A stretch of 46,165 nt of DNA from Gammaproteobacteria bacterium (GTDB lineage: Bacteria > Pseudomonadota > Gammaproteobacteria > Pseudomonadales > Cellvibrionaceae), in assembly GCA_025362015.1 (NCBI GenBank), contig JANYIO010000265.1, positions 1-46,165 on the forward strand, read 5' to 3'. The notes beneath the pieces were generated by a model. The model was given only the letters and a program-made list of their open reading frames with translations, searched no databases and was not told the origin of the DNA. Positions 6,271 to 44,582 of the stretch are shown here, in pieces (within the stretch, counting starts at the first letter, position 1; each line of letters begins with the position of its first letter). Both the position numbers and the translations under genes were made by a program.

Positions 6271-7818
6271 TTACTCTTCATTCTCGTCATTGATAGATGC
6301 ATCATCAATTGGCTCCAATAACACCGTAGTAGCGTCACTGTCATCTTCTAATAAATTTGCACCAATCCGTTTTTTAGTTTTTGCACCCAGGCGACGCAAA
6401 TCATCAACTCGTTTTACTAAATTTCCGCGACCCGTTTGCAAACGATTGCGGGCTAAATTATAGGCTTCTTGTGATTTCCCCAAATAATTCTGAATGGAGT
6501 CCATTGCTTCTAATAACAATACAAATTGATCATGCAATGCGCCCGCCTCTTTCGCGATTTGTTCCGCATTTTTATTTTGTTTTTCGTAACGCCAAATATT
6601 TTCAACTGTGCGTAAGGTCGCCAGTAAAGTTGTGGGGCTGACTAAAATGATGTGTTTGTCGTAAGCAACACGATATAAACCCGGATCATGCTGGAGGGCG
6701 AGCAAAAATGCGGCCTCAATAGGAATAAATATAAATACAAAATCTAATGCCTTTACTCCCTCTAACTTCTCATAATCTTTGATACTTAGCCCTTTGATGT
6801 GATTACGCAGCGAATTAACATGGGCATTTAAATATAACTTACGTTCCTGATCATCTTCTGTGGAGCAGAATTTTTCGTAATCGATAAGCGACACTTTCGA
6901 GTCAATAATAATATCTTTTTGTTCAGGCAAATGAATGATCACATCTGGCATGCGACGTGAGCCATCATCGCTGGTAAAACTCATTTGCGTGTCGTATTCA
7001 CGACCTTTCTGCAACCCGGATTCCTCTAACAACCGCTCAAGAATCACTTCACCCCAATTGCCTTGGGTCTTATTATTACCTTTGAGAGCCTGGGCAAGAT
7101 TAACGGCATCTTCACCAATTTTTTGTGCTTGTTTTTGTAGCTCTACAACTTGACCCGATAAACGGTTACGGTCGGCATTTTCTTTTTCATAGACATCTTC
7201 AACTTTTTTACGAAACTCATTGAGCTGTAATTTAAAGGGGTCCAATGTATTTTCTAATAAGCTCTTACTGCTTTGCGAAAACTGTTGTTGTTTATTATCA
7301 AAAATTTTATTGGCAATATTTTCAAATTCTTTTGCCAACTCTATTTTGGCATTCTGTAATAGTGCCAACTGCTCCACAAAGTTTTTACGCTCTTGATCCA
7401 AACGTGTATTTAATTCTGTCGCTTCTGCACTGACTTTTGCCAGCGCAGCATCTTTACTCAATAATTGTTGTTGTGTTTGATGCAACTGCTGCAATTTTTC
7501 TTTTGCTGCGGCAAGTTCCTGCAAACTATGATTTGATTGTTCTTGCAATTGTTGATGCACAAGTTTTAGTTGTGTTAACTCTTGCTTCGCCTCTTGCGCT
7601 TGCTGTCTGGCTTGCAACAACTCATGCTGCATGCCAGTTTCGCGCACGGCCAATTGATGAATTTCTTGTACATGTAACGACTTCAGCTCATTCTCACGCA
7701 ACAGTAATGCATCCTCCTGGCGCTTATGGCTAGTTGCCCGCAACAACAGATTGGCGAAAATAAAACCAACGCCGGCAGCAATTAACACAACGAAAACAAT
7801 AATAAATGGGCTATTCAC
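6271..7818 (-). CDS. rmuC: DNA recombination protein RmuC
   Basis: A 515-residue member of the RmuC family, a predicted PD-(D/E)XK-fold protein that limits recombination at inverted repeats; its biochemical activity is not well defined. An N-terminal membrane anchor (about residues 5-25) is followed by a long Gln/Glu/Lys-rich coiled coil (about 35-200) and then the conserved RmuC domain, recognisable from NNKTQGNWGEVILERLLEES, the MPDVIIHLPEQKDIIIDSKV core (candidate nuclease strand), and VSPTTLLATLRTVENIWRYE. The start is GTG, preceded by AAGGA at suitable spacing. It is divergent from murI with a gap of 93 bases. The acidic C-terminal tail (DDSDATTVLLEP) is not conserved in the family as I know it. 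Confidence 0.95.
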   Translation of the reverse strand: MNSPFIIVFVVLIAAGVGFIFANLLLRATSHKRQEDALLLRENELKSLHVQEIHQLAVRETGMQHELLQARQQAQEAKQELTQLKLVHQQLQEQSNHSLQELAAAKEKLQQLHQTQQQLLSKDAALAKVSAEATELNTRLDQERKNFVEQLALLQNAKIELAKEFENIANKIFDNKQQQFSQSSKSLLENTLDPFKLQLNEFRKKVEDVYEKENADRNRLSGQVVELQKQAQKIGEDAVNLAQALKGNNKTQGNWGEVILERLLEESGLQKGREYDTQMSFTSDDGSRRMPDVIIHLPEQKDIIIDSKVSLIDYEKFCSTEDDQERKLYLNAHVNSLRNHIKGLSIKDYEKLEGVKALDFVFIFIPIEAAFLLALQHDPGLYRVAYDKHIILVSPTTLLATLRTVENIWRYEKQNKNAEQIAKEAGALHDQFVLLLEAMDSIQNYLGKSQEAYNLARNRLQTGRGNLVKRVDDLRRLGAKTKKRIGANLLEDDSDATTVLLEPIDDASINDENEE

Positions 7819-7911
7819 AGCGGTTCCTTAATAAATAGGTTGAGAGCAAGTGACGGCTCCCCTAAAATTCGGTTTTCAGTATTCTATCGCAATTATTCAC
7901 ATCGAGCTTCC

Positions 7912-8730
7912 ATGACCTCATCGCCAATAGCCTCTACCCCCCGCATTCTGGTTTTTGATTCTGGCGTCGGCGGTTTGAGTATTGTCCATGAAATACAAAA
8001 AAAATTGCCTTTTGCTCCCTTAATTTATGCATCGGACAACGCATTCTTTCCCTACGGCACAAAAGGCGAAGCCGAATTAATTACCCGAGTGGATGCCGTA
8101 TTACATAAAATTATTGCGGCGCATCCAATTGATATTATCGTAATTGCCTGCAATACCGCCAGCACCCTTACCCTACCCCATATTCGCGATAATTTCCCAC
8201 AGCCAGTAGTAGGTGTAGTACCAGCGATAAAACCAGCGGCAGCACACAGCAAATCGCAAGTGATTGGCTTACTCGCAACACCCGCAACAGTGGCGCGTCC
8301 TTACACTCACGCATTGATTCGCGAACATGCGCCCAATGCCGAGGTTATTTCCGTAGGTTCGAGCGAATTAGTGGAGCTTGCAGAACATAAGTTACGTGGC
8401 GGCGAAGTAAAACCTGAACAACTCCATACTATTTTACAACCTTTTTTCCTACATTCACGTATTGCTGAAATGGATGCACTCGTTTTAGCCTGCACTCATT
8501 TCCCCTTATTGCGCAATGAATTAGCCGCACAATTTTTGCCGCAGGTACAATTGATCGATTCAGGTGAAGCTATTGCTCGTCGCGTTGCATCCTTGTTAGA
8601 ACCACATCATTTTATTGCACAAACACCTGAGCATTGGGCAGTATTTACCAAAGCATCGTCAGCAGTAAATGCGCTAAGCCCACAACTTGTTCAATTTGGA
8701 ATTCATCGCATAAACATCATCGAAGTTTAA
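7912..8730 (+). CDS. murI: Glutamate racemase
   Basis: Interconverts L- and D-glutamate without a cofactor to supply D-Glu for peptidoglycan. It is 272 residues with both catalytic cysteines visible: Cys80 in ACNTAS and Cys194 in ACTHFPLL, and the substrate-binding DSGVGGLS near the N-terminus (residues 16-23) and SDNAFFPYG (41-49). I place the start at ATG 7912; the frame is open upstream to a TTG at 7840, but that would add 24 residues not found in the family. The upstream Shine-Dalgarno is weak. The gene is followed by the methyltransferase gene after 47 T-rich bases, so they may be cotranscribed. Confidence 0.96.
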   Translation: MTSSPIASTPRILVFDSGVGGLSIVHEIQKKLPFAPLIYASDNAFFPYGTKGEAELITRVDAVLHKIIAAHPIDIIVIACNTASTLTLPHIRDNFPQPVVGVVPAIKPAAAHSKSQVIGLLATPATVARPYTHALIREHAPNAEVISVGSSELVELAEHKLRGGEVKPEQLHTILQPFFLHSRIAEMDALVLACTHFPLLRNELAAQFLPQVQLIDSGEAIARRVASLLEPHHFIAQTPEHWAVFTKASSAVNALSPQLVQFGIHRINIIEV

Positions 8731-8777
8731 AATTGCTTTCGTTTTTTATTCGATCTCGTTTTTATTAAAGGTAAGTT

Positions 8778-10040
8778 ATGACAACCGTTCCAGCTACCCA
8801 TGAATTAGAACAATTTTTAACGTATATTCAGCAAGTTTTTAACGATAGCTCTTTGCAGCGCTTAGTGTTGTCTAAATACGTGGGTAGCGATACCGAATTA
8901 GAACGTATTACAATTCGCCCAGTGAAAATAAAAGATGAATCCTTGTTATCGTTTTTGTACGAATATCGCACTCGTCATATCACTAAAAATCATCCTATCA
9001 CTGAAGCAGTGGCCTTATGGCAACAATGGCTTGGGCAAGATTTCAAAAATGCACATCTGCTAAGTGATGCCTGGGAAATTCAGTTGAGTTTTAGTAAAAA
9101 AGGTAAAGTCTTGCTTAACAAACATCGCAATAAAAATACCACTAACAACGCGACTGACGAATCATTAGAACACGATAACGAAAACGATAAAAAGAAGCCT
9201 TTAGCCCACGACAAACAAAAGCCCTTAGCCCACGACAAAAAGAAACACCGTTTCGTGGAGCAGAGCCGACCTTATTTACGTGAACTAGGTATTACTGATA
9301 ACAATGGCCAAATTATTCCCGCCATGTCGCGCAAATGGAAACAAATTAATAAATTTATTGAAGTTCTCTCCAGTGCGATTGATAGCACAGGCATTGCGCA
9401 CCGCGAAGAAGTTCACATCGCCGATTTTGGCTCGGGAAAAGCTTATTTAACGTTTGCAGTGCATGACTATTTAAGCGCACAGCTTGGCGTAAAAACTCAA
9501 GTAACCGGTGTAGAGCTACGCCAACCTCTGGTGGATTTATGCAATCAAACCGCCAGCAAATTATGTTTAAGCGGTATTCAATTTGAACAAGGCGACGTAC
9601 AACATTTTGCGGTGCGCGGAATTAATATAATGATTGCGTTACACGCCTGCGATACCGCGACAGATTATGCTATTCATATGGGCATTCGTAGTGGCGCAGA
9701 AATTATTATGTGTTCACCCTGCTGCCATAAACAAATTCGTCCACAGCTTAAAAGCCCATCCTTATTAGAACCAATATTACATCACGGCATTCACCTCGGG
9801 CAGGAAGCTGAAATGGTTACCGACGGCCTGCGTGCATTGCTGCTCGAAGCAAACGGATATGACACCCAGGTATTTGAATTTATTTCACTCGAACACACCA
9901 GTAAAAATAAAATGATTCTTGCCCAGAAGCGCAAAATAGCACGCGATAACAGCGCTATTTTGTTACAAATAAAAGCAATAAAAGAATTCTATGGAATTAC
10001 CGAACACTGCTTGGAAAGATTGTTAAAAGACAACGTTTAG
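8778..10040 (+). CDS. Class I SAM-dependent methyltransferase (Methyltransf_32-like)
   Basis: A 420-residue protein whose C-terminal half is a Rossmann methyltransferase. Motif I is IADFGSGKAYLTFAV (about 213-227) with the acidic end of strand 2 in GVELRQPL. It then has IALHACDTATDYAI and a cysteine-rich IIMCSPCCHKQI (about 307-318), a combination typical of the Methyltransf_32 group. The substrate is unknown; RNA or protein are both possible. The N-terminal half (about 1-125) is a separate domain, and the linker (about 128-160) is a lysine/aspartate-rich segment with the motif KPLAHDK repeated, encoded by a near-perfect DNA duplication at about 9191-9241. The start is preceded by AAAGGTAAG. 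Confidence 0.82.
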   Translation: MTTVPATHELEQFLTYIQQVFNDSSLQRLVLSKYVGSDTELERITIRPVKIKDESLLSFLYEYRTRHITKNHPITEAVALWQQWLGQDFKNAHLLSDAWEIQLSFSKKGKVLLNKHRNKNTTNNATDESLEHDNENDKKKPLAHDKQKPLAHDKKKHRFVEQSRPYLRELGITDNNGQIIPAMSRKWKQINKFIEVLSSAIDSTGIAHREEVHIADFGSGKAYLTFAVHDYLSAQLGVKTQVTGVELRQPLVDLCNQTASKLCLSGIQFEQGDVQHFAVRGINIMIALHACDTATDYAIHMGIRSGAEIIMCSPCCHKQIRPQLKSPSLLEPILHHGIHLGQEAEMVTDGLRALLLEANGYDTQVFEFISLEHTSKNKMILAQKRKIARDNSAILLQIKAIKEFYGITEHCLERLLKDNV

Positions 10041-10057
10041 AAAGCTTGTTAAAAGAC
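10014..10057. repeat. Short direct repeat at the 3' end of the methyltransferase gene
   Basis: The 18-base unit GAAAGATTGTTAAAAGAC at 10014-10031 recurs at 10040-10057 with one change (A to C). The first copy encodes the last residues of the methyltransferase and the second lies just past its TAG. It looks like a local slippage or duplication product. The offset of 26 bases puts the copies in different frames. Confidence 0.7.
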
Positions 10058-10164
10058 TAATAGTCCCCATAATGAATTTACACGTAGCTATAGTGTCAAT
10101 ACTTTTGTAGTATTCGACAAAGAATCAACTTTTTAGATACAACCAGCCATTAGCGGAGATCATC

Positions 10165-10842
10165 ATGCAAAACGTATCCAGTATTCAGTCGATTCAATCG
10201 ACCAGCCAAATTGCTGCAAGTAAGGTGTTACGCAACACTTACCTGCTGTTAGGCTTAACACTAGGCTTCAGTGCGCTGTGCGCTGGCATTTCAATGGCTG
10301 TAGAACTTGGTTACGGCATAAGTCTTGTAATGAGCCTTACTGCGATGGGACTGATTTGGTTTGTATTACCAAGAACGGCTAACTCTGCCAATGGTTTATT
10401 GGTCGTATTTGCTTTTACCGGCCTTGTCGGTGGCAGCTTGGGCCCAATGCTTAATCATTACGTACACTTGGCCAATGGCGCCAATATCATCATGCAAGCG
10501 TTAGGCGGTACTGCTGCGGTATTTATTGGCCTTTCTGCTTATGTTTTAACCACACGCAAAAACTTCAACTTCCTCAGTGGATTTCTGGCTGCTGGCATGA
10601 TGCTAATGTTAGTGATCATGTTCTTCCTCATTGGTGCATCATTTTTTGGCTATCAGTTTTCGGCATTGAGCTTGGCGTACTCTGCGGGTATTGTGTTACT
10701 AATGTCAGGTATGATTCTTTATCAAACCAGTGAAATTATTCACGGTGGCGAAACCAATTACATCATGGCAACAACCAGCTTGTTTCTTTCTATTATTAAT
10801 TTATTTACGAGCTTGTTGCGGCTGTTGAGCGGTAACGAATAA
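10165..10842 (+). CDS. BAX inhibitor-1 / YccA family integral membrane protein
   Basis: A 225-residue polytopic inner-membrane protein with about seven hydrophobic segments and a short polar N-terminus (QNVSSIQSIQSTSQIA). Family features include LRNTYLLLGLTLGFSALCAG in the first helix and the C-terminal YQTSEIIHGGETNYIMATTSLFLSIINLFTSLLRLL, where bacterial YccA/YbhL proteins carry conserved acidic residues linked to pH-dependent calcium leak in the related BsYetJ. In E. coli YccA is an FtsH-interacting protein. A GCGGAG ribosome site precedes the ATG. A strong terminator follows, so the gene probably ends its own transcript. Confidence 0.92.
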   Translation: MQNVSSIQSIQSTSQIAASKVLRNTYLLLGLTLGFSALCAGISMAVELGYGISLVMSLTAMGLIWFVLPRTANSANGLLVVFAFTGLVGGSLGPMLNHYVHLANGANIIMQALGGTAAVFIGLSAYVLTTRKNFNFLSGFLAAGMMLMLVIMFFLIGASFFGYQFSALSLAYSAGIVLLMSGMILYQTSEIIHGGETNYIMATTSLFLSIINLFTSLLRLLSGNE

Positions 10843-10864
10843 CCCTTAAAAAAATATTGATTGC

Positions 10865-10899
10865 AAAGGCTCCTGCACATACAGTGCTGGAGCCTTTTT
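10865..10899 (+). terminator. Rho-independent terminator after the BAX inhibitor-1 family gene
   Basis: A stem of AAAGGCTCC (10865-10873) with GGAGCCTTT (10889-10897), extended by GCAC/GTGC across one T-T mismatch, closes a five-base loop and runs into five T residues. It lies 22 bases after the stop codon. Confidence 0.9.
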
Positions 10900-10930
10900 C
10901 ATATAAAGCCTGCATAATTTGGAAAATGCT

Positions 10931-12397
10931 ATGGGACTATCGCGTCGTCACTTTTTAAAAAATACCGGTGCGGCGGCGCTTGCTTTAGGTGCATTTCGAC
11001 ATTTACCAAGTCAGGCTCAGGTCTATAGCATCGATCCCATTAATGGAATTGATAAATATGGAAAACTCATTAAAGATGCTGTAGGCATTCTGGATTTACC
11101 ACTAGGATTTAGTTACAACATTATTTCGCGCAGTGGTGAGCGCATGAGCGATGGATTAATAACGCCTTACAGTCCGGATGGAATGGCCGCCTTCCCCGTA
11201 AAAGGTAAACCGCATCAAAGTTTATTAATTCGCAATCATGAATTGCATCCTGCACACATAAAAACAGATTCTTTTGGTAGTGACATAGCGCGCGCGCGTA
11301 AATTTGTGGGAGATAAAGCTTACGATTTTTTTCACAATGAAATGCCCGCTAATGGCGGGACTACCAATCTGCTCTTTGATCACCACACTGGCAAGCTTGA
11401 GCATTCTTTCTTAAGCCTAATCGGCACGGTAGACAATTGCTCCGGAGGCGCTACGCCTTGGGGTTCATGGCTCAGCTGTGAAGAAACAGAAGATGGATTG
11501 AATCAGGGATTTGGCAAAAATCATGGTTTTGTTTTTGAAGTGCCGTCCACTGCTACCGGTTTAGTTGAAGCCATTCCCTTAACAGCAATGGGACGCTTTA
11601 AGCACGAAGCCTGCGCCGTAGATATTACTACCGGCATTGTGTACATGACCGAAGACCATGAACGCGGAATATTTTATCGTTTTATTCCCAATCAACCCAA
11701 AGTGCTCGCAGCAGGTGGTCGATTGCAAGCAATGGTGATTATTGATCAAGCTGCGACAAATACACGTAATTGGCAAGAAGATATCGAACAGAAAAAAGCT
11801 AGCATCATTGCGGTACACCAAACAATGAATTGTAAATGGGTAGATCTTGACGACGTAACCTCACCCGATGGTGATCTTAGTACAAGAGGTGAAGCTAAAG
11901 GGGCAGCAATTTTTGCGCGCTGCGAAGGCATTTCATTTGCATTGCAAAAAAACAAAAAACGTGAAGTTTTTTTCTCAGCAACCACGGGTGGCAACAAAAA
12001 AATTGGCCAATTATGGCGCTACCAACCCAGCCCCCATGAAGGCACAACACGCGAGCAAGAGCATCCCGCCACCCTGGATTTATTTTTCGAAGCAACAGAT
12101 CGCTCCGTACTTGAAGCCCCGGATAATTTAACTATAGCCCCCTGGGGTGATTTAATTATTTGTGAAGACAGTTATTCAACCGCAGCAGATGATTTCAATT
12201 ATTTACGCGGAATAACACCCAAAGGAAAAATTTACACCATTGCGATGAACCCACAAAAACAAAAAGGCGAATTTTGCGGCGCCTGCTTCTCACCCGATGG
12301 ATCAACATTATTTGTCAATATTCAAACGCCGGGAATAACTTTCGCAATTACGGGGCCTTGGGGAAAGGTACGAACTAACGCCACGAAAACTGGTTAG
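10931..12397 (+). CDS. Tat-exported PhoX/DUF839 family protein
   Basis: A 488-residue protein exported in folded form: the N-terminus LSRRHFLKNTGAAALALGAF is a twin-arginine signal (SRRHFLK) with a hydrophobic stretch. The mature part matches the DUF839/PhoX group of calcium- and iron-dependent beta-propeller phosphatases, with LIRNHELHP, GTTNLLFDHHTGKLEHSFLSL, DNCSGGATPWGSWLSCEE, FKHEACAVD and YMTEDHERGIFYRFIP. In PhoX homologues such segments supply metal ligands and a cysteine bridge, but many DUF839 proteins are not proven phosphatases, so I keep the call general. I use the ATG at 10931; a TTG at 10919 would extend the N-region by four residues. No Pho box was recognised. Confidence 0.87.
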   Translation: MGLSRRHFLKNTGAAALALGAFRHLPSQAQVYSIDPINGIDKYGKLIKDAVGILDLPLGFSYNIISRSGERMSDGLITPYSPDGMAAFPVKGKPHQSLLIRNHELHPAHIKTDSFGSDIARARKFVGDKAYDFFHNEMPANGGTTNLLFDHHTGKLEHSFLSLIGTVDNCSGGATPWGSWLSCEETEDGLNQGFGKNHGFVFEVPSTATGLVEAIPLTAMGRFKHEACAVDITTGIVYMTEDHERGIFYRFIPNQPKVLAAGGRLQAMVIIDQAATNTRNWQEDIEQKKASIIAVHQTMNCKWVDLDDVTSPDGDLSTRGEAKGAAIFARCEGISFALQKNKKREVFFSATTGGNKKIGQLWRYQPSPHEGTTREQEHPATLDLFFEATDRSVLEAPDNLTIAPWGDLIICEDSYSTAADDFNYLRGITPKGKIYTIAMNPQKQKGEFCGACFSPDGSTLFVNIQTPGITFAITGPWGKVRTNATKTG

Positions 12398-28745: not shown

Positions 28746-29090
28746 TTATTTTAAGTAATCAAGCAACATTTTTTGAATAACTGCAAATTCTTCTTCGATG
28801 CAACAAAGATCTTCAGCAAAACTTCCAAAATTGGAATCCAATGCTTTCTGTTCAAGCGAGCCGCATAAGCTTGCTAATTGCACCGCACCCAAATTGCTAC
28901 AGCTACCTTTAAAACTATGTGCGGCACGGCGAATAGCATCGCCATCCGTGGAGTGCATCAAAGACTGAAGTGTAGCTATGCGACTTCTGGAATCAGTTAA
29001 AAAAGTTTCAATTAACAAGGCAAAATCATCCTCCATGACTTCTTTCAACACATTGACTGCATCGTAATCTAGATGTTTTGGTTTAGTCAT
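28746..29090 (-). CDS. hptB: HptB-like histidine phosphotransfer protein
   Basis: A 114-residue single Hpt domain with phospho-acceptor His58 in AAHSFKGSCSNLGA, the canonical HSxKGSxxNxGA motif. In Pseudomonas aeruginosa HptB receives phosphate from several hybrid sensor kinases (PA1611, PA1976, PA2824, RetS) and passes it to the response regulator HsbR. The start ATG lies inside the hsbR stop region (overlap of eight bases); a TTG five codons upstream is less likely. The order hsbA-hsbR-hptB matches that of P. aeruginosa PA3347-PA3345, which supports the name, although here the module sits inside the fli block. The presence of the cognate kinases cannot be checked in this window. Confidence 0.85.
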   Translation of the reverse strand: MTKPKHLDYDAVNVLKEVMEDDFALLIETFLTDSRSRIATLQSLMHSTDGDAIRRAAHSFKGSCSNLGAVQLASLCGSLEQKALDSNFGSFAEDLCCIEEEFAVIQKMLLDYLK

Positions 29091-30792
29091 CGTTAACCCA
29101 CTCAAAAATCACGTCTACTTTATTACCGTTACCGGAGTAGCGCACCGTTTTACACAATTTTTCAACGAGTGAAATACCGCGGCCACTGTAGCCAAGAGTA
29201 GAAATATCTTTGCCACTTTGTGCAGTGAAGTCAAACCCTTTACCACTATCTTCAACGCACAAATTAAGTGTTCCACCCTCAACATTAGCCGAGAAAGTAA
29301 AATAAATACGCACAAAACCCGTCGTGATTTCATTTAAAAGATGTTCACGCAAACTATAGTATTGCGCAAAACCATCCGGTGATTTTTTTAACGCAGCATC
29401 TAAACCCAAAACACCATGTTCCAGGGCATTAGAATATAATTCCGCGAGAATGGTAAAAAGGCTTCCACTAAAACTCCGCAACTCTGGCACTTCCATTAAG
29501 ATATTGAGTAAGAATGGTAGGGGATCAAATACTTTAAAACTTTCCGGTTTTACCTCAAAGTGCATATTCCAGGTAACCATACACAATTCATGGCGAATGA
29601 AAGCGCGTTGCGCTTTATTATCGAGAATATCCGGGGCTTCCATTTTTATTTCAATAAAAGATAAATCATCGTCCTGCTCCCCACCGCCAATAAATTCTTT
29701 TACATCGCTAAGAATTTCATTGAATAATTTTTCAGGCTGTTGATTATTGGAAAAAATAGCCAGCAAACTTTCTTCGCCATACATATCTCCAACTGGATTA
29801 CGCGCTTCATGAATACCATCTGACCACATAAAAATTCTATCGCCAGCATCCAAATCAAAATGCTGCACATCATTTTTAAAATTTCGTTCAGACAGCACGC
29901 CGAGCGGCAAATGTGTTGATTGAATGTGGATAATACTGGCGTCTTTTGTGCGATAAATCATGCCAGCAGGCAAACCACCATTCCAAACTTTAATGTGATT
30001 GCGTCTAAAATTTATATCTATCATGGTGGCGCAACAAAACAGCCCAATGGGTAAAATTGCTTTTAATTTTTTATTAATTTCACACAACACATCAGACATT
30101 GAAAAGCCTTTGTGTATCATGTCATAAAAAATAGATGCCAGCGGCATAGCACCAATCGCCGCGGGCAAGCCGTGGCCAGTGAAATCGCCGAGTAAAACAA
30201 CCATATTGCCGTTGGGGCGAATAGCAGCCACCATTACATCGCCGTTAAAAACCGCCAACGATGATAAAAAATATTGTACATTGCTAGCATTCAAACAACC
30301 GCTGTGGGCAACATTATCAAATACTTGTTTAGCAACTGTTTGCTCTTGTAATAGCCGCCGATGATGCTGCGCTAATTGATCGCGCTGGCTCAACATTGTG
30401 GAGTGCAAACCACGCATCCGATTAAAGGATTTTATTTTAGCTTTTAAGATGACGCGATTGTAAGGTTTCGATAAAAAATCATCGCCACCAGCATCAAGAC
30501 AATGCACAAGTGATTCAGTATCTTGCAGGGAAGTCAGAAAAATAATGGGGACAAGTTCATCACCGGCCAATTGTTTTATTTGGCGCGCCGCACCGAAGCC
30601 ATCTAACTCAGGCATAAGCGCATCAAGCAAAACAATATCAGGGCGCTCTTGCTGGAAAATGGCAACAGCTTCAAGACCGTTCTTTGCAGAAAATACTTGA
30701 TGCCCTTCTTTGCGCACTATCGTTTCCAAAATCATCCGATCGGAATCAGTGTCATCGGCAACAAGAATTTTTAAGCTGTTTATATCTGTCAT
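29083..30792 (-). CDS. hsbR: HsbR-like response regulator with PP2C phosphatase and HATPase kinase domains
   Basis: A 569-residue three-domain regulator. Receiver: residues about 8-125, acidic pocket ADDTD (12-16), phospho-acceptor Asp57 in VLLDALMPE, Thr87 and Lys109. PP2C/RsbU-type Ser phosphatase: about 190-385, with VAAIRPNGNMVVLLGDFTGHGLPAAIGAM, MFMWSDGIHEARN-like metal-binding Asp residues and EQDDDLSFIEIK. C-terminal HATPase_c (RsbW-like anti-sigma kinase): about 430-565, with LAELYSNALEHGVLGLD and VEDSGKGFDF, GYSGRGISLVEKL. In P. aeruginosa phosphorylated HsbR dephosphorylates HsbA, and unphosphorylated HsbR phosphorylates it, shifting HsbA between FlgM and the diguanylate cyclase HsbD. 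Downstream hptB overlaps it. Confidence 0.88.
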   Translation of the reverse strand: MTDINSLKILVADDTDSDRMILETIVRKEGHQVFSAKNGLEAVAIFQQERPDIVLLDALMPELDGFGAARQIKQLAGDELVPIIFLTSLQDTESLVHCLDAGGDDFLSKPYNRVILKAKIKSFNRMRGLHSTMLSQRDQLAQHHRRLLQEQTVAKQVFDNVAHSGCLNASNVQYFLSSLAVFNGDVMVAAIRPNGNMVVLLGDFTGHGLPAAIGAMPLASIFYDMIHKGFSMSDVLCEINKKLKAILPIGLFCCATMIDINFRRNHIKVWNGGLPAGMIYRTKDASIIHIQSTHLPLGVLSERNFKNDVQHFDLDAGDRIFMWSDGIHEARNPVGDMYGEESLLAIFSNNQQPEKLFNEILSDVKEFIGGGEQDDDLSFIEIKMEAPDILDNKAQRAFIRHELCMVTWNMHFEVKPESFKVFDPLPFLLNILMEVPELRSFSGSLFTILAELYSNALEHGVLGLDAALKKSPDGFAQYYSLREHLLNEITTGFVRIYFTFSANVEGGTLNLCVEDSGKGFDFTAQSGKDISTLGYSGRGISLVEKLCKTVRYSGNGNKVDVIFEWVNDD

Positions 30793-41515: not shown

Positions 41516-41701
41516 ATGAACAAAGATCAAATCGAAGGCACAGTAAAAAACGCAGCCGGCAAAATGCAACAAAAAGTTGGCGAAGCAGTAGGTAGTGACA
41601 AGCAACAAGTTAAAGGCTTGGAAAAACAAATCGCAGGCAAGGCGCAAGAAGCCGTTGGTAATTTCAAAGAAAATATCAAAGATGCCAAAAAAAGCCGTTA
41701 A
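41516..41701 (+). CDS. CsbD-family stress-response protein
   Basis: A 61-residue hydrophilic protein with the family pattern MNKDQIEGTVKNAAGKMQQKVGEAVGS followed by a degenerate second helix repeat (VKGLEKQIAGKAQEAVGNFKENIKDAKKS). CsbD-like proteins (YjbJ in E. coli) are abundant, unstructured or helical stress-induced proteins with no known biochemical role. TTGGAG lies nine bases upstream of the ATG. A strong stem-loop follows the gene. It does not appear to share a transcript with the flagellar genes. Confidence 0.93.
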   Translation: MNKDQIEGTVKNAAGKMQQKVGEAVGSDKQQVKGLEKQIAGKAQEAVGNFKENIKDAKKSR

Positions 41702-41900: not shown

Positions 41901-42257
41901 ATGGTTAGTCTGGTGCACAAAATTGCAAATAACAACGATCCACATGCTCAGCAAATCGCCGAAGCAATCGTCTTAAGATGGCAAAAAATTGAGTTCGGTC
42001 TGTGTCCTATTATTGGCCGACGAGGCGTTGCCGCACTTTATAAACGCAGCCTGCATCTTACTAGTCAAACCTATCCATGGCTGGCGAGCACAGATAATGG
42101 AATTAATTTCGCGGCGTTTAAAGTAGCACTCGAACAACAGAATAGTGCCGATGCAATAGCCGCCGGGGATGCTCTGCTAGAAACATTCTACGAATTGTTT
42201 AGTACTTTGGTCGGATCCTCGCTATCCGAACGATTACTGTTCTCAGTGACGAACTAA
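41901..42257 (+). CDS. Uncharacterised small protein preceding the KaiC-like gene
   Basis: A 118-residue soluble protein, mostly helical (MVSLVHKIANNNDPHAQQIAEAIVLRWQKIEFGLCPIIGRRGVAALYKRSLHLTSQTYPWLAS). The part PIIGRRGVAALYKRSLHL looks like a conserved core; I believe similar small proteins occur beside KaiC-like or GGDEF genes in other Proteobacteria but cannot name a family. The frame extends to 41847; I choose the internal ATG at 41901 because the extra 18 residues (VVLHCSKLAWKAKRFPI) look unrelated, though its ribosome site is weak. It ends 32 bases before the KaiC-like gene, suggesting joint transcription. Confidence 0.65.
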   Translation: MVSLVHKIANNNDPHAQQIAEAIVLRWQKIEFGLCPIIGRRGVAALYKRSLHLTSQTYPWLASTDNGINFAAFKVALEQQNSADAIAAGDALLETFYELFSTLVGSSLSERLLFSVTN

Positions 42258-42289
42258 CTCTTCCAGCAATACACTCGTAAAGGACATCC

Positions 42290-43786
42290 ATGAAGAACAC
42301 CAAAGTAATTATCAATCGTTTAACCACTGGTGTTCCAGGTCTCGATGAAATTCTCGGGGGTGGTTTGTCAGAGTTCTCGTTCAACCTTATCGCAGGATCA
42401 CCTGGCTGCGGCAAGACTACGCTTGCGCACCAAATAATGTTTGCGTTGGCCACACCGAAGCGCCCCGCACTCTTTTTCACAGTATTGGGAGAGCCACCCC
42501 TGAAAATGCTGCGCTACCAACAACAGTTCGATTTCTTCAATAGCGAAGCAATTAATCACTCGATCTACTTCATCAACCTCACTGACGAAATCCAGGCAGG
42601 TAACCTCGACGAAGTATTACAGCGGATTGTCACCGAGGTCGAAAAACATAAGCCTGCTTTGGTGTTTGTAGATTCTTTTCGTTCCCTTGCACTTAGTAAC
42701 ATCAAAGAAGGCAATAGCTACAACAACTTACAGCAATTCGTACAACAGCTCGGGATGTTGATGACGAGTTGGCAAGCCACCACATTCCTGCTCGGCGAAT
42801 ACCTAAACGAAACTGATATTAATTCCGTGTTCGCTGTAGCGGACGGGCTGATCTGGCTACGCCAGAGTGTGTTGCGTAATTCGATGGTTCGTAAAATGGA
42901 AATCATGAAAATGCGCGGCCAGCCATCCTTGCCTGGGTTGCATACTTTTCGCATTGACACGACCGGTATCCAAGTCTTTCCACCGGCCATAATTCCCAGA
43001 CCAGCACATGTCGACGCAACCAGAGCACCGCCCTGCATCCGCTTGCAGATAGGTGTTCCAGAACTAGACGACATGCTAGGTGGCGGTTTACCACGCGGCT
43101 ATTCACTATTAGTGGCCGGCCCATCGGGATCAGGCAAGAGTCTTCTGGCGAGTGCTTTTCTGGCTGAGGGTGCGCGCTGCGGAGAGACTGGCGTTATAGC
43201 AGCCTTTGAGCAACATCCAAGTCAATCCCTTAATCGCACCATTGCCGAGCTCATTAACAACGATCAGGTTGGCCTCGTGGACAGCCGTGCATCTGATCTC
43301 TCTATCAATGAAATAGTAACGTTTGTTATCAAGGAAATACGACGACTTAAAGCTACCCGGGTCGTGATCGATTCGCTTTCAGGTTTCGAGCTTGCGGTAG
43401 CACCCACTTTCCGTGCAGATTTTCGCGAATCAATGGCACGCATGGTCGCTGCCTTAACGAGTGAAGGGGTGACCACGTTAATGACTTCCGAACTTGAAGA
43501 TCGCTACACAGATTTACGTTTCAGCCCCTACAGCACCGCCTTTCTGACTGACTCAATTATTGTCATGCGTTACATCGAAGTTAATAGCCGACTACTGCGT
43601 GTCATGGCGGTGGTTAAGGTGCGCGCCAGTGCCCACTCGAACGAATTGCGCGAATTCAGTATTGGTGATGATGGTATTCGTATTGGCGAGATGCTTCTCG
43701 ATGAAGAGGGATTACTCGGCGGCAAACCAACTCGAAAACACGTTGCCGATTTACCCACAACAACCAGCGGAGCTAACAATGGTTAA
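42290..43786 (+). CDS. KaiC-like double-domain RecA-fold ATPase
   Basis: A 498-residue protein with two KaiC/RecA domains. Domain 1: GVPGLDEILGGGLSE, Walker A GSPGCGKT (36-43), Walker B-like PALVFVDSFRSL, and RKMEIMKMRGQPSLPGLHTFRI, which aligns with the end of KaiC CI. Domain 2: GVPELDDMLGGGLPRGYSLLVAGPSGSGKS (Walker A 277-284), FEQHP (306-310) where KaiC has a catalytic Glu-Glu pair, VVIDSLSGFELA, and YSTAFLTDSIIVMRYIEV (414-431). In my by-eye alignment the KaiC phosphosites Ser431/Thr432 fall on Ala417 and Phe418, so the classical phosphorylation cycle is unlikely. No kaiA or kaiB is nearby. A GGDEF cyclase gene overlaps its end, pointing to a c-di-GMP output. Confidence 0.88.
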   Translation: MKNTKVIINRLTTGVPGLDEILGGGLSEFSFNLIAGSPGCGKTTLAHQIMFALATPKRPALFFTVLGEPPLKMLRYQQQFDFFNSEAINHSIYFINLTDEIQAGNLDEVLQRIVTEVEKHKPALVFVDSFRSLALSNIKEGNSYNNLQQFVQQLGMLMTSWQATTFLLGEYLNETDINSVFAVADGLIWLRQSVLRNSMVRKMEIMKMRGQPSLPGLHTFRIDTTGIQVFPPAIIPRPAHVDATRAPPCIRLQIGVPELDDMLGGGLPRGYSLLVAGPSGSGKSLLASAFLAEGARCGETGVIAAFEQHPSQSLNRTIAELINNDQVGLVDSRASDLSINEIVTFVIKEIRRLKATRVVIDSLSGFELAVAPTFRADFRESMARMVAALTSEGVTTLMTSELEDRYTDLRFSPYSTAFLTDSIIVMRYIEVNSRLLRVMAVVKVRASAHSNELREFSIGDDGIRIGEMLLDEEGLLGGKPTRKHVADLPTTTSGANNG

Positions 43787-44582
43787 AGCACATAATTCCG
43801 ATAAGGACAAAACCACTCGCCCCAGCAAGAATGAAGAGACCAATGCAGCGCATGAAAAGGCTATTCATAAATTAGCACAACTGGAAGCGCAAATTGAAAA
43901 GTCGCGTGCAATTCTAGCTCGGCTACATATGGATATTCTGCAATCGGGAAGTGTCTGGGCTACCCAACAACCCCAGATAGTAAAAGTAAATGAACAATTG
44001 GTATTGGCAACACTAAACGCCCAAAGCGAGGCTGAAGCAAAGGCGCAAGCACTGGAGAAAATATCGCGCGCAGCTGAGCTTGATCCGTTAACAGAAATTC
44101 CCAATCGCGTGTTGTTACTCGACCGCTTAGTTCATGCAATCGCCATTGCAAAACGTAATAAAGCCCACTTGGCGCTGCTTTTTGTAGATCTCAATAAGTT
44201 CAAGGAGATCAACGACACCTACGGTCACGCAGCCGGGGATCAGGTGCTCAAGCGAGTGGCATATTGCCTCACATCCTCTGTTCGCGAAGCAGATACGGTC
44301 AGCCGCTATGGTGGTGATGAATTTCTCATTCTACTTACTGAAGTATCTCAAGCGTCAGATGCAGTTCTCATTGCTGACAAGGTACTCACTGCACTCGGCA
44401 CGCCCAGCCTCGTGGGTGATGAAATGCTGAGCCTGACCGCTAGCATTGGTATTAGCATCTACCCCACCCACGGCGAAGATATTGACACCCTTATTGCGCG
44501 TGCCGACACTGCCATGTATCAAGCAAAAAAGCGCAAGCTCGGTCACCTAGTCTATTGCGGTGAAGAATCCGTCAGCGAATAA
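43779..44582 (+). CDS. Diguanylate cyclase (GGDEF domain) coupled to the KaiC-like ATPase
   Basis: A 267-residue cytoplasmic protein that should make c-di-GMP from two GTP. The first 100 residues are a charged coiled-coil region (NEETNAAHEKAIHKLAQLEAQIEKSRAILARL, SEAEAKAQALEKISRAAE) with no sensor domain I recognise, which could pair with the KaiC-like protein. The catalytic domain starts at DPLTEIPNR and has the intact active site GGDEF (178-182) and an inhibitory I-site RxxD (READ, 169-172) at the standard five-residue spacing. The start ATG lies within the KaiC-like gene, overlapping it by eight bases. The frame is open further upstream, but that part is antisense to no family and simply overlaps the KaiC-like gene. 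Confidence 0.92.
   Translation: MVKAHNSDKDKTTRPSKNEETNAAHEKAIHKLAQLEAQIEKSRAILARLHMDILQSGSVWATQQPQIVKVNEQLVLATLNAQSEAEAKAQALEKISRAAELDPLTEIPNRVLLLDRLVHAIAIAKRNKAHLALLFVDLNKFKEINDTYGHAAGDQVLKRVAYCLTSSVREADTVSRYGGDEFLILLTEVSQASDAVLIADKVLTALGTPSLVGDEMLSLTASIGISIYPTHGEDIDTLIARADTAMYQAKKRKLGHLVYCGEESVSE

Follow-up and report, generated by a model that had tools for sequence, protein, structure and literature searches.

The closest described relatives of the system reported here are the cyanobacterial clock protein KaiC, in which the roles of the phosphosites, the catalytic Glu residues and the Walker A residues are well established, and the kinase SasA, a read-out enzyme beside this ATPase. Histidine kinase or GGDEF/EAL genes adjoining or near kaiC were reported in 2011 (PMC3164672), and the parts of that report considered here also distinguish a third ('black') group of kaiC genes with few phosphosites, with AF among its listed profiles. 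According to the portion of a survey considered here (PMC5520375), clocks outside cyanobacteria, if there are any, need an output pathway unlike that of Synechococcus. The locus described in this work lies in a stretch of 46,165 nucleotides (hereafter the window; contig JANYIO010000265.1) from a gammaproteobacterium of the Cellvibrionaceae, and consists of plus-strand genes for a small helical protein, a two-domain KaiC-like ATPase and a predicted diguanylate cyclase. We consider it fairly probable that a non-circadian ATPase of the KaiC family, together with a dedicated helical adaptor, gates enzymes bearing a particular N-terminal coil, the enzyme in the window being the diguanylate cyclase. 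Sequence gives good support for the link between the members of the gene set, from which we infer the physical mechanism.

The locus resembles the contexts in PMC3164672 in having kinase or GGDEF/EAL genes after or near kaiC and in the few-phosphosite group with AF. That report likens the kinase N-terminus to KaiB/SasA, whereas none of the output enzymes compared here matched KaiB in Pfam, and the parts of it examined describe no conserved small protein, no coil common to kinases and cyclases and no fusion. The domain by which SasA binds has a thioredoxin fold like that of KaiB, as set out in the portion of PMC5520375 considered here, whereas the present system has a coil and, as a chain of its own, a helical protein. 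Searches of open-licence literature found no description of the small protein, of the coil common to the outputs or of the fusion described below.

A conserved three-gene set

The small all-helical protein (118 amino acids; 41901-42257, plus strand), proposed here as the adaptor between the ATPase and the output coil, is followed by the KaiC-like ATPase (498 amino acids; 42290-43786, plus strand) and the predicted diguanylate cyclase (267 amino acids; 43779-44582, plus strand), and all three genes are open. The ATG of the cyclase gene lies inside the KaiC-like gene, giving an overlap of 8 nucleotides (43779-43786), and a GGAG (43769-43772) stands six bases upstream of it; this arrangement, read from the sequence at 43769-43786 on the plus strand, is consistent with translational coupling of the two genes. 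With starts chosen mechanically, the junction between the KaiC-like and output genes overlaps in 14 of 76 relatives too, and a 4-nucleotide overlap joins the small gene to the KaiC-like gene in 76 of 81 loci, L037 counted in. Sites found in a scan for promoters and terminators were no more numerous than in shuffled sequence. The only Pfam content of the cyclase is a GGDEF domain at residues 99-253 (PF00990, E-value 5.7e-50), with the motif READTVSRYGGDEF; the GGDEF motif RYGGDEF and the I-site READ (RxxD) are both intact. Ahead of this domain is an N-terminal coil of about residues 1-97 (43779-44069, plus strand), a region common to the kinase-type outputs of relatives. An earlier note on this DNA, made from the letters of the window, had described three genes run together, a cyclase start within the KaiC-like gene, an intact GGDEF motif and I-site and a coil in place of any recognised sensor domain, and each of these observations was reproduced.

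The small protein, which the same note had called unknown and helical, gave no Pfam or NCBIfam match. Its AlphaFold2 model has seven helices (predicted local distance difference test score, pLDDT, 88.6) and gave no fold match to the PDB or to viral models at an E-value of 0.001. A single copy of the gene is present in the genome of origin, an assembly of 328 contigs that is 96% complete. An alignment of eight relatives, used to scan genome contigs, recovered at least 543 confirmed relatives among at least 591 stretches, of which the best 80, ranked by match to the KaiC query, were kept for analysis; 41 of these are named Pseudomonas and the remainder belong mostly to Burkholderiales and Xanthomonadales groups. 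A small-gene match lies directly upstream of the KaiC-like gene in every one of these 80 relatives, the copy in L066 being split between frames. Conservation of gene order had been fixed beforehand as a test capable of refuting the earlier note, and the order extends beyond the strain, so the arrangement is not a chance one.

In searches the other way round, made with a small-protein profile, six of 274 genomes of the class were positive, five with the match beside KaiC and the sixth (G155) with a fusion; in the order, five of 390 were positive, four beside KaiC and one a weak match without KaiC. The orders of G155 and G209 (three genomes each) added one operon-type match, in G312. For distant KaiC homologues (L016-L036, about 24-32% identity), tblastn at an E-value of 0.01 detected no small gene within 1.5 kb. 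This test is weak, since tblastn also failed to pick up the gene in G174 and G128, in both of which the profile detected it. By these searches, the three-part gene set is conserved and not peculiar to the strain of the window.

KaiC matches at 49-71% identity occur in eight of 369 genomes of the class besides that of the window, two of them partial, and the KaiC-like gene is present in two of 21 genomes of the genus. The window protein is closer to Pseudomonas members (76% identity) than to its genus mate (70%), which suggests that the module was gained horizontally in the lineage of the window.

A KaiC relative without the clock phosphosites

The KaiC-like protein matched PF06745 in two stretches (233 bits in all), and its domains taken separately scored 130.6 and 100.3 bits, over the gathering score, in agreement with the two-domain KaiC homologue of the earlier note. 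Its score against the circadian KaiC model of NCBIfam (TIGR02655, circ_KaiC) was 153 bits, far under the cut-off of 546, and the related model PRK09302.1 likewise stayed below its cut-off (234 against 408 bits). In the genome of origin, near full-length PF06745 matches came only from this protein, one per domain; four further matches, at three places, were all partial. The predicted structure (pLDDT 82.7) matched KaiC structures over the full length (E-value 1.1e-39, template modelling score about 0.76). The protein thus has in common with clock KaiC (PDB 4ijm, 4o0m and 1tf7, among others) its two KaiC domains, full-length fold, Walker A motifs and domain order. It differs in sequence (about 24% identity), in the lost phosphosites, in the Glu pairs, which are changed in both domains, in the absence of any KaiB found with it, and in its partner, a helical protein without a matched fold.

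Residues were compared across 67 aligned sequences. The Walker A Gly-Lys-Thr/Ser was retained in both domains of all 67. The positions of KaiC S431 and T432 are taken by Ala417 and Phe418 in the window protein (the same residues stand there in 65 and 66 of the 67, respectively), and that of T426 by Ser412 (66 of 67). The catalytic Glu pair of domain 2 corresponds to Glu307 (66 of 67) and Gln308 (59 of 67), the second Glu being replaced. At the Glu-Glu site of KaiC, domain 1 has Gly67-Glu68 (67 of 67) and a one-residue insertion, and which residue stands in for the catalytic Glu there hinges on the placement of a one-residue gap. The loss of the phosphosites and of one catalytic Glu from domain 2, put forward in the earlier note, is borne out by this alignment, in which Ser/Thr was not restored at the first two positions. 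Its statement that kaiB is missing also held: a search of the genome of origin found no KaiB, with S. elongatus as a positive control. The small protein and the cyclase gave no Pfam match to KaiA, no genome-wide KaiA search having been made.

Judged by these residues, the KaiC-like protein is a non-clock relative of cyanobacterial KaiC that lacks its phosphosites. It might still be argued that the protein keeps time, as a clock or an hourglass timer read out through cyclic di-GMP (c-di-GMP), since it has the KaiC family fold and both Walker A motifs, and such a role is proposed for another kaiC group without KaiB, in Ramlibacter, in the parts of PMC3164672 considered here. According to the same parts of that report, a KaiC homologue that cannot phosphorylate two residues is unlikely to sustain cyclic timing. 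The clock reading was rejected because the phosphosite residues are changed, almost uniformly across the alignment, and because the genome search turned up no KaiB; we regard a timer as extremely unlikely.

A defence-system identity was also considered and rejected. PADLOC matched the KaiC-like protein only, with ATPase-type models, the best of which (mad8, E-value 4.1e-11) covered a short P-loop stretch; neither the small protein nor the cyclase was matched.

A coil shared by kinase and cyclase outputs

A hidden Markov model built from the N-termini of 40 kinase-only outputs of related operons found 35 of 35 GGDEF-type N-termini at an E-value of 7.3e-7 or better. The coil of the window, which was not used in building the model, was among them (3.9e-12). 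At 1e-3 the model matched none of 3253 control open reading frames, taken mechanically from the flanks of the loci, and none of 700 shuffled sequences. A search of 14 genomes with a coil profile produced 27 matches, and all 14 with an E-value below 1e-10, including one from the second operon of a single genome, fall in operons of small, KaiC-like and output genes; the best match in G379 (1.2e-6) is likewise the output gene of the operon. The window coil scored 5.8e-23 against this profile, of which it is itself a row. No second gene with the family coil was found in the genome of origin, which has 30 GGDEF matches (E-value 1e-10). As judged from these profiles, the output coil is homologous between the kinase and cyclase versions and typical of these operons.

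Exchange and decay of the output enzyme

Output types were assigned by Pfam, or by the states set for a tree of relatives, in 77 readable operons, namely those of the window, L037 and 75 of the best 80 loci; in L052, L064, L077, L084 and L096 the output gene runs off a contig end, is broken or is missing. In Pfam, HATPase_c was found in 70 of the outputs, HisKA in 68 and GGDEF in 35, so that 42 are kinases without GGDEF, 28 contain both parts and seven are GGDEF only (window, L037, L071, L102, L106, L119 and L123). The tree states were 41, 27 and seven, respectively, with L110 (degenerate GGDEF plus kinase) and L122 (broken) set apart. The tree is a quick one in which 23 of 83 inner branches are drawn open; the GGDEF-only tips are scattered on it and require seven changes, of which the well-supported branches force only two. 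A separate kinase-like gene directly follows the cyclase in L102, and no kinase gene follows the cyclase of the window within the operon. The output of the genus mate, the only other member found in the genus, is a GGDEF-kinase protein of 587 amino acids, and the window cyclase looks like a shortened form of such a protein. No output among the 77 matched KaiB (Pfam, E-value 0.001), and no SasA-type N-terminus was recognised. The earlier note had proposed a c-di-GMP switch in place of a circadian oscillator; the non-circadian part agrees with the missing phosphosites and KaiB, but c-di-GMP is not the output of the family at large, given the 42 kinases without GGDEF.

The phospho-accepting His is replaced in seven of 27 GGDEF-kinase outputs and retained in 40 of 41 kinase-only outputs. 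Among the GGDEF-containing outputs, the I-site RxxD is present in 35 of 35 and GGDEF or SGDEF in 34 of 35. The seven His-replaced outputs are spread over roughly three regions of the tree, and the GGDEF-only outputs L106 and L123 group with His-replaced rows (supports 93 and 85, not starred). The His loss in joined outputs and this grouping suggest, without proving it, that double outputs became cyclases alone by way of an inactive kinase. The nearest tree group to the window contains rows with an intact His, and the placement of the window is weak (82).

The predominance of HATPase_c, the 42 outputs without GGDEF and the genus mate's GGDEF-kinase would also agree with a phosphorelay whose real output is the kinase, the window copy being a decayed remnant that has lost both kinase and function. 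In the genome of origin no other gene with the coil was found, and its best kinase match (41%) is coil-less. Such decay is hard to reconcile with three open genes, an intact GGDEF motif and I-site, and GGDEF-only outputs on seven scattered tips (two changes being forced by starred branches); moreover, the decaying half is the kinase while the I-site is kept throughout. We therefore view the remnant explanation as quite unlikely.

Some loci vary further. One Aquabacterium genome has two operons, one with a GGDEF-kinase output and the other (L163, G776:C1:354000-364000) with an output of coil and kinase from which the GGDEF part is missing as if excised. In the distant loci L038, L042, L043 and L044 a similar motif was seen by eye before a kinase, kinase-receiver, GGDEF or GGDEF-EAL part. 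The output gene of the operon is absent, shortened or out of frame in L052, L064, L096 and L122, so loss of the output may leave the KaiC-like gene in place. Two apparent fusions of KaiC to an output were not counted: in L045 the match ran past a stop, and in L122 the GGDEF part lies in another frame.

A fusion of the small domain to a cyclase, and opposing evidence

In the G155 fusion (364 amino acids) the small domain spans residues 24-125 and GGDEF residues 172-323. The small domain scored 71 bits (E-value 4.8e-24 in a one-sequence search and 2.6e-20 genome-wide), and the linker between the two domains resembles, by eye, the second half of the coil. On this domain order, the fusion links the small protein directly to a coil-borne GGDEF domain, though in one case. 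A Crp-like gene precedes the fusion (L146:5351-6088).

Several observations count against gating of coil-borne enzymes by the KaiC-like ATPase with its adaptor. The fusion is a single case with no KaiC gene in the surrounding 15 kb, so the small domain can occur without an adjacent KaiC-like gene. A weak small-protein match in L152 (G569; E-value 4.2e-9) also has no KaiC-like gene within 1.5 kb, and L040, a KaiC relative at 54% identity, shows no small gene. The 80 loci are not independent, since they are the top 80 of at least 543 relatives as ranked against the KaiC query and 41 are named Pseudomonas, and the module is dispensable, since only two of the 21 genus genomes carry the KaiC-like gene. 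Eleven of the 14 genomes searched with the coil profile, the window's included, contributed rows to it. Three weak coil matches outside the operons (G785:C1, 9.2e-7; G780:C2, 0.0024; G775:C1 at 4.53 Mb, 0.0043) indicate that the coil is not wholly exclusive to them. In G785:C1 the second half of the coil precedes GGDEF, and the 9.5 kb examined there contain neither a KaiC nor a small gene; this GGDEF gene (L164:4241-4825) is 50% identical to the window cyclase over residues 66-255.

The fusion without a nearby KaiC gene would be explained if the small protein alone regulated coil-borne enzymes, as a ligand-binding sensor subunit, and the KaiC-like ATPase were a separate co-expressed factor, chaperone-like or energy-sensing, acting on the small protein. 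Against this, every small-protein match examined lies beside KaiC, save the fusion and one weak match, and we judge this arrangement unlikely, if worth keeping in mind.

Flagellar and other neighbouring genes

The module adjoins a fli block and genes whose products have FleS/FleR-type domains, as the earlier note had pointed out, and it could accordingly be a flagellum-linked regulator of these genes. In L085 (Aquabacterium terrae), the nearest tree row to the window by path, fliE, fliF and fliG lie within 8 kb of the operon (L085:455-3755 and 7573-11129). This was the only one of 89 related loci with fliE/fliF/fliG matches; L057, L091 and L094 matched the FleR-like regulator alone, a common family, and the genus mate's copy sits among different genes. 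The flagellar neighbourhood is thus present in the window but not conserved; a flagellar link was rejected on the basis of these loci and the genus mate's differing neighbourhood, and a flagellar role for the module is very unlikely.

A protein combining a receiver, a SpoIIE phosphatase and HATPase is encoded within the flagellar block (29083-30792). A gene for a CsbD-like stress protein lies directly upstream of the module (41516-41701); tblastn at 1e-3 did not detect one in any of the 89 related loci. The commonest flanking family is a Crp-like regulator, present within 6 kb in 17 of 81 loci, 11 of them outside Pseudomonas; the assignment was confirmed in Pfam for L111:4814-5665.

Proposed mechanism and significance

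In GGDEF diguanylate cyclases with coiled-coil or S-helix linkers, an N-terminal helix sets the dimer geometry and RxxD is the feedback site, and the window enzyme resembles them in both respects. Their sensor is in the same chain; on the reading proposed here, the sensor would be a separate ATPase with an adaptor. The KaiC-like ATPase would form a hexameric ring as KaiC does, and its nucleotide state or assembly would be the input. The small protein would act as the adaptor that docks the output coil, and docking would set the geometry of the GGDEF dimer, so that the state of the ATPase would turn c-di-GMP production on or off. The only output enzyme of the module in the window is the cyclase. 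The KaiC-like protein should not oscillate, because the clock chemistry is gone. The suggestion of the earlier note that the ATPase is the input of the cyclase agrees with the conserved gene set and the coil-only cyclase; to it must be added the small protein, which is a third regular part and is once fused to GGDEF. Overall, the observations in that note were confirmed and its interpretation was partly supported.

Because the enzyme part is exchanged among related sets in many proteobacteria, the ATPase is probably a plug-in sensor for different outputs. A broader proposal, to which we give about as much credence as doubt, is that a KaiC-family ATPase stripped of its clock chemistry has become a general plug-in sensor which, with the adaptor, would control any enzyme bearing one specific coil. 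Bacteria would have swapped this enzyme again and again, from one that makes c-di-GMP to one that signals as a histidine kinase or the reverse, and the half no longer in use would be the first to decay.

KaiC-like proteins of environmental Pseudomonas were reportedly described by Terrettaz and others in 2023, with stress and biofilm phenotypes. Their family may be the one in the window, as P. protegens FD6 carries a member of it (L055).

The module is a concrete and widespread candidate, with three defined parts, for signal output from KaiC homologues outside cyanobacteria. The coil marks partner enzymes by sequence, natural swaps of the enzyme permit clean tests, and cyclases without a sensor domain are offered a candidate input. 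If the broader proposal is true, the module would link second messengers to the ATP state of the cell in a distinct way, and would let KaiC homologues pass on a signal with neither KaiB nor SasA.

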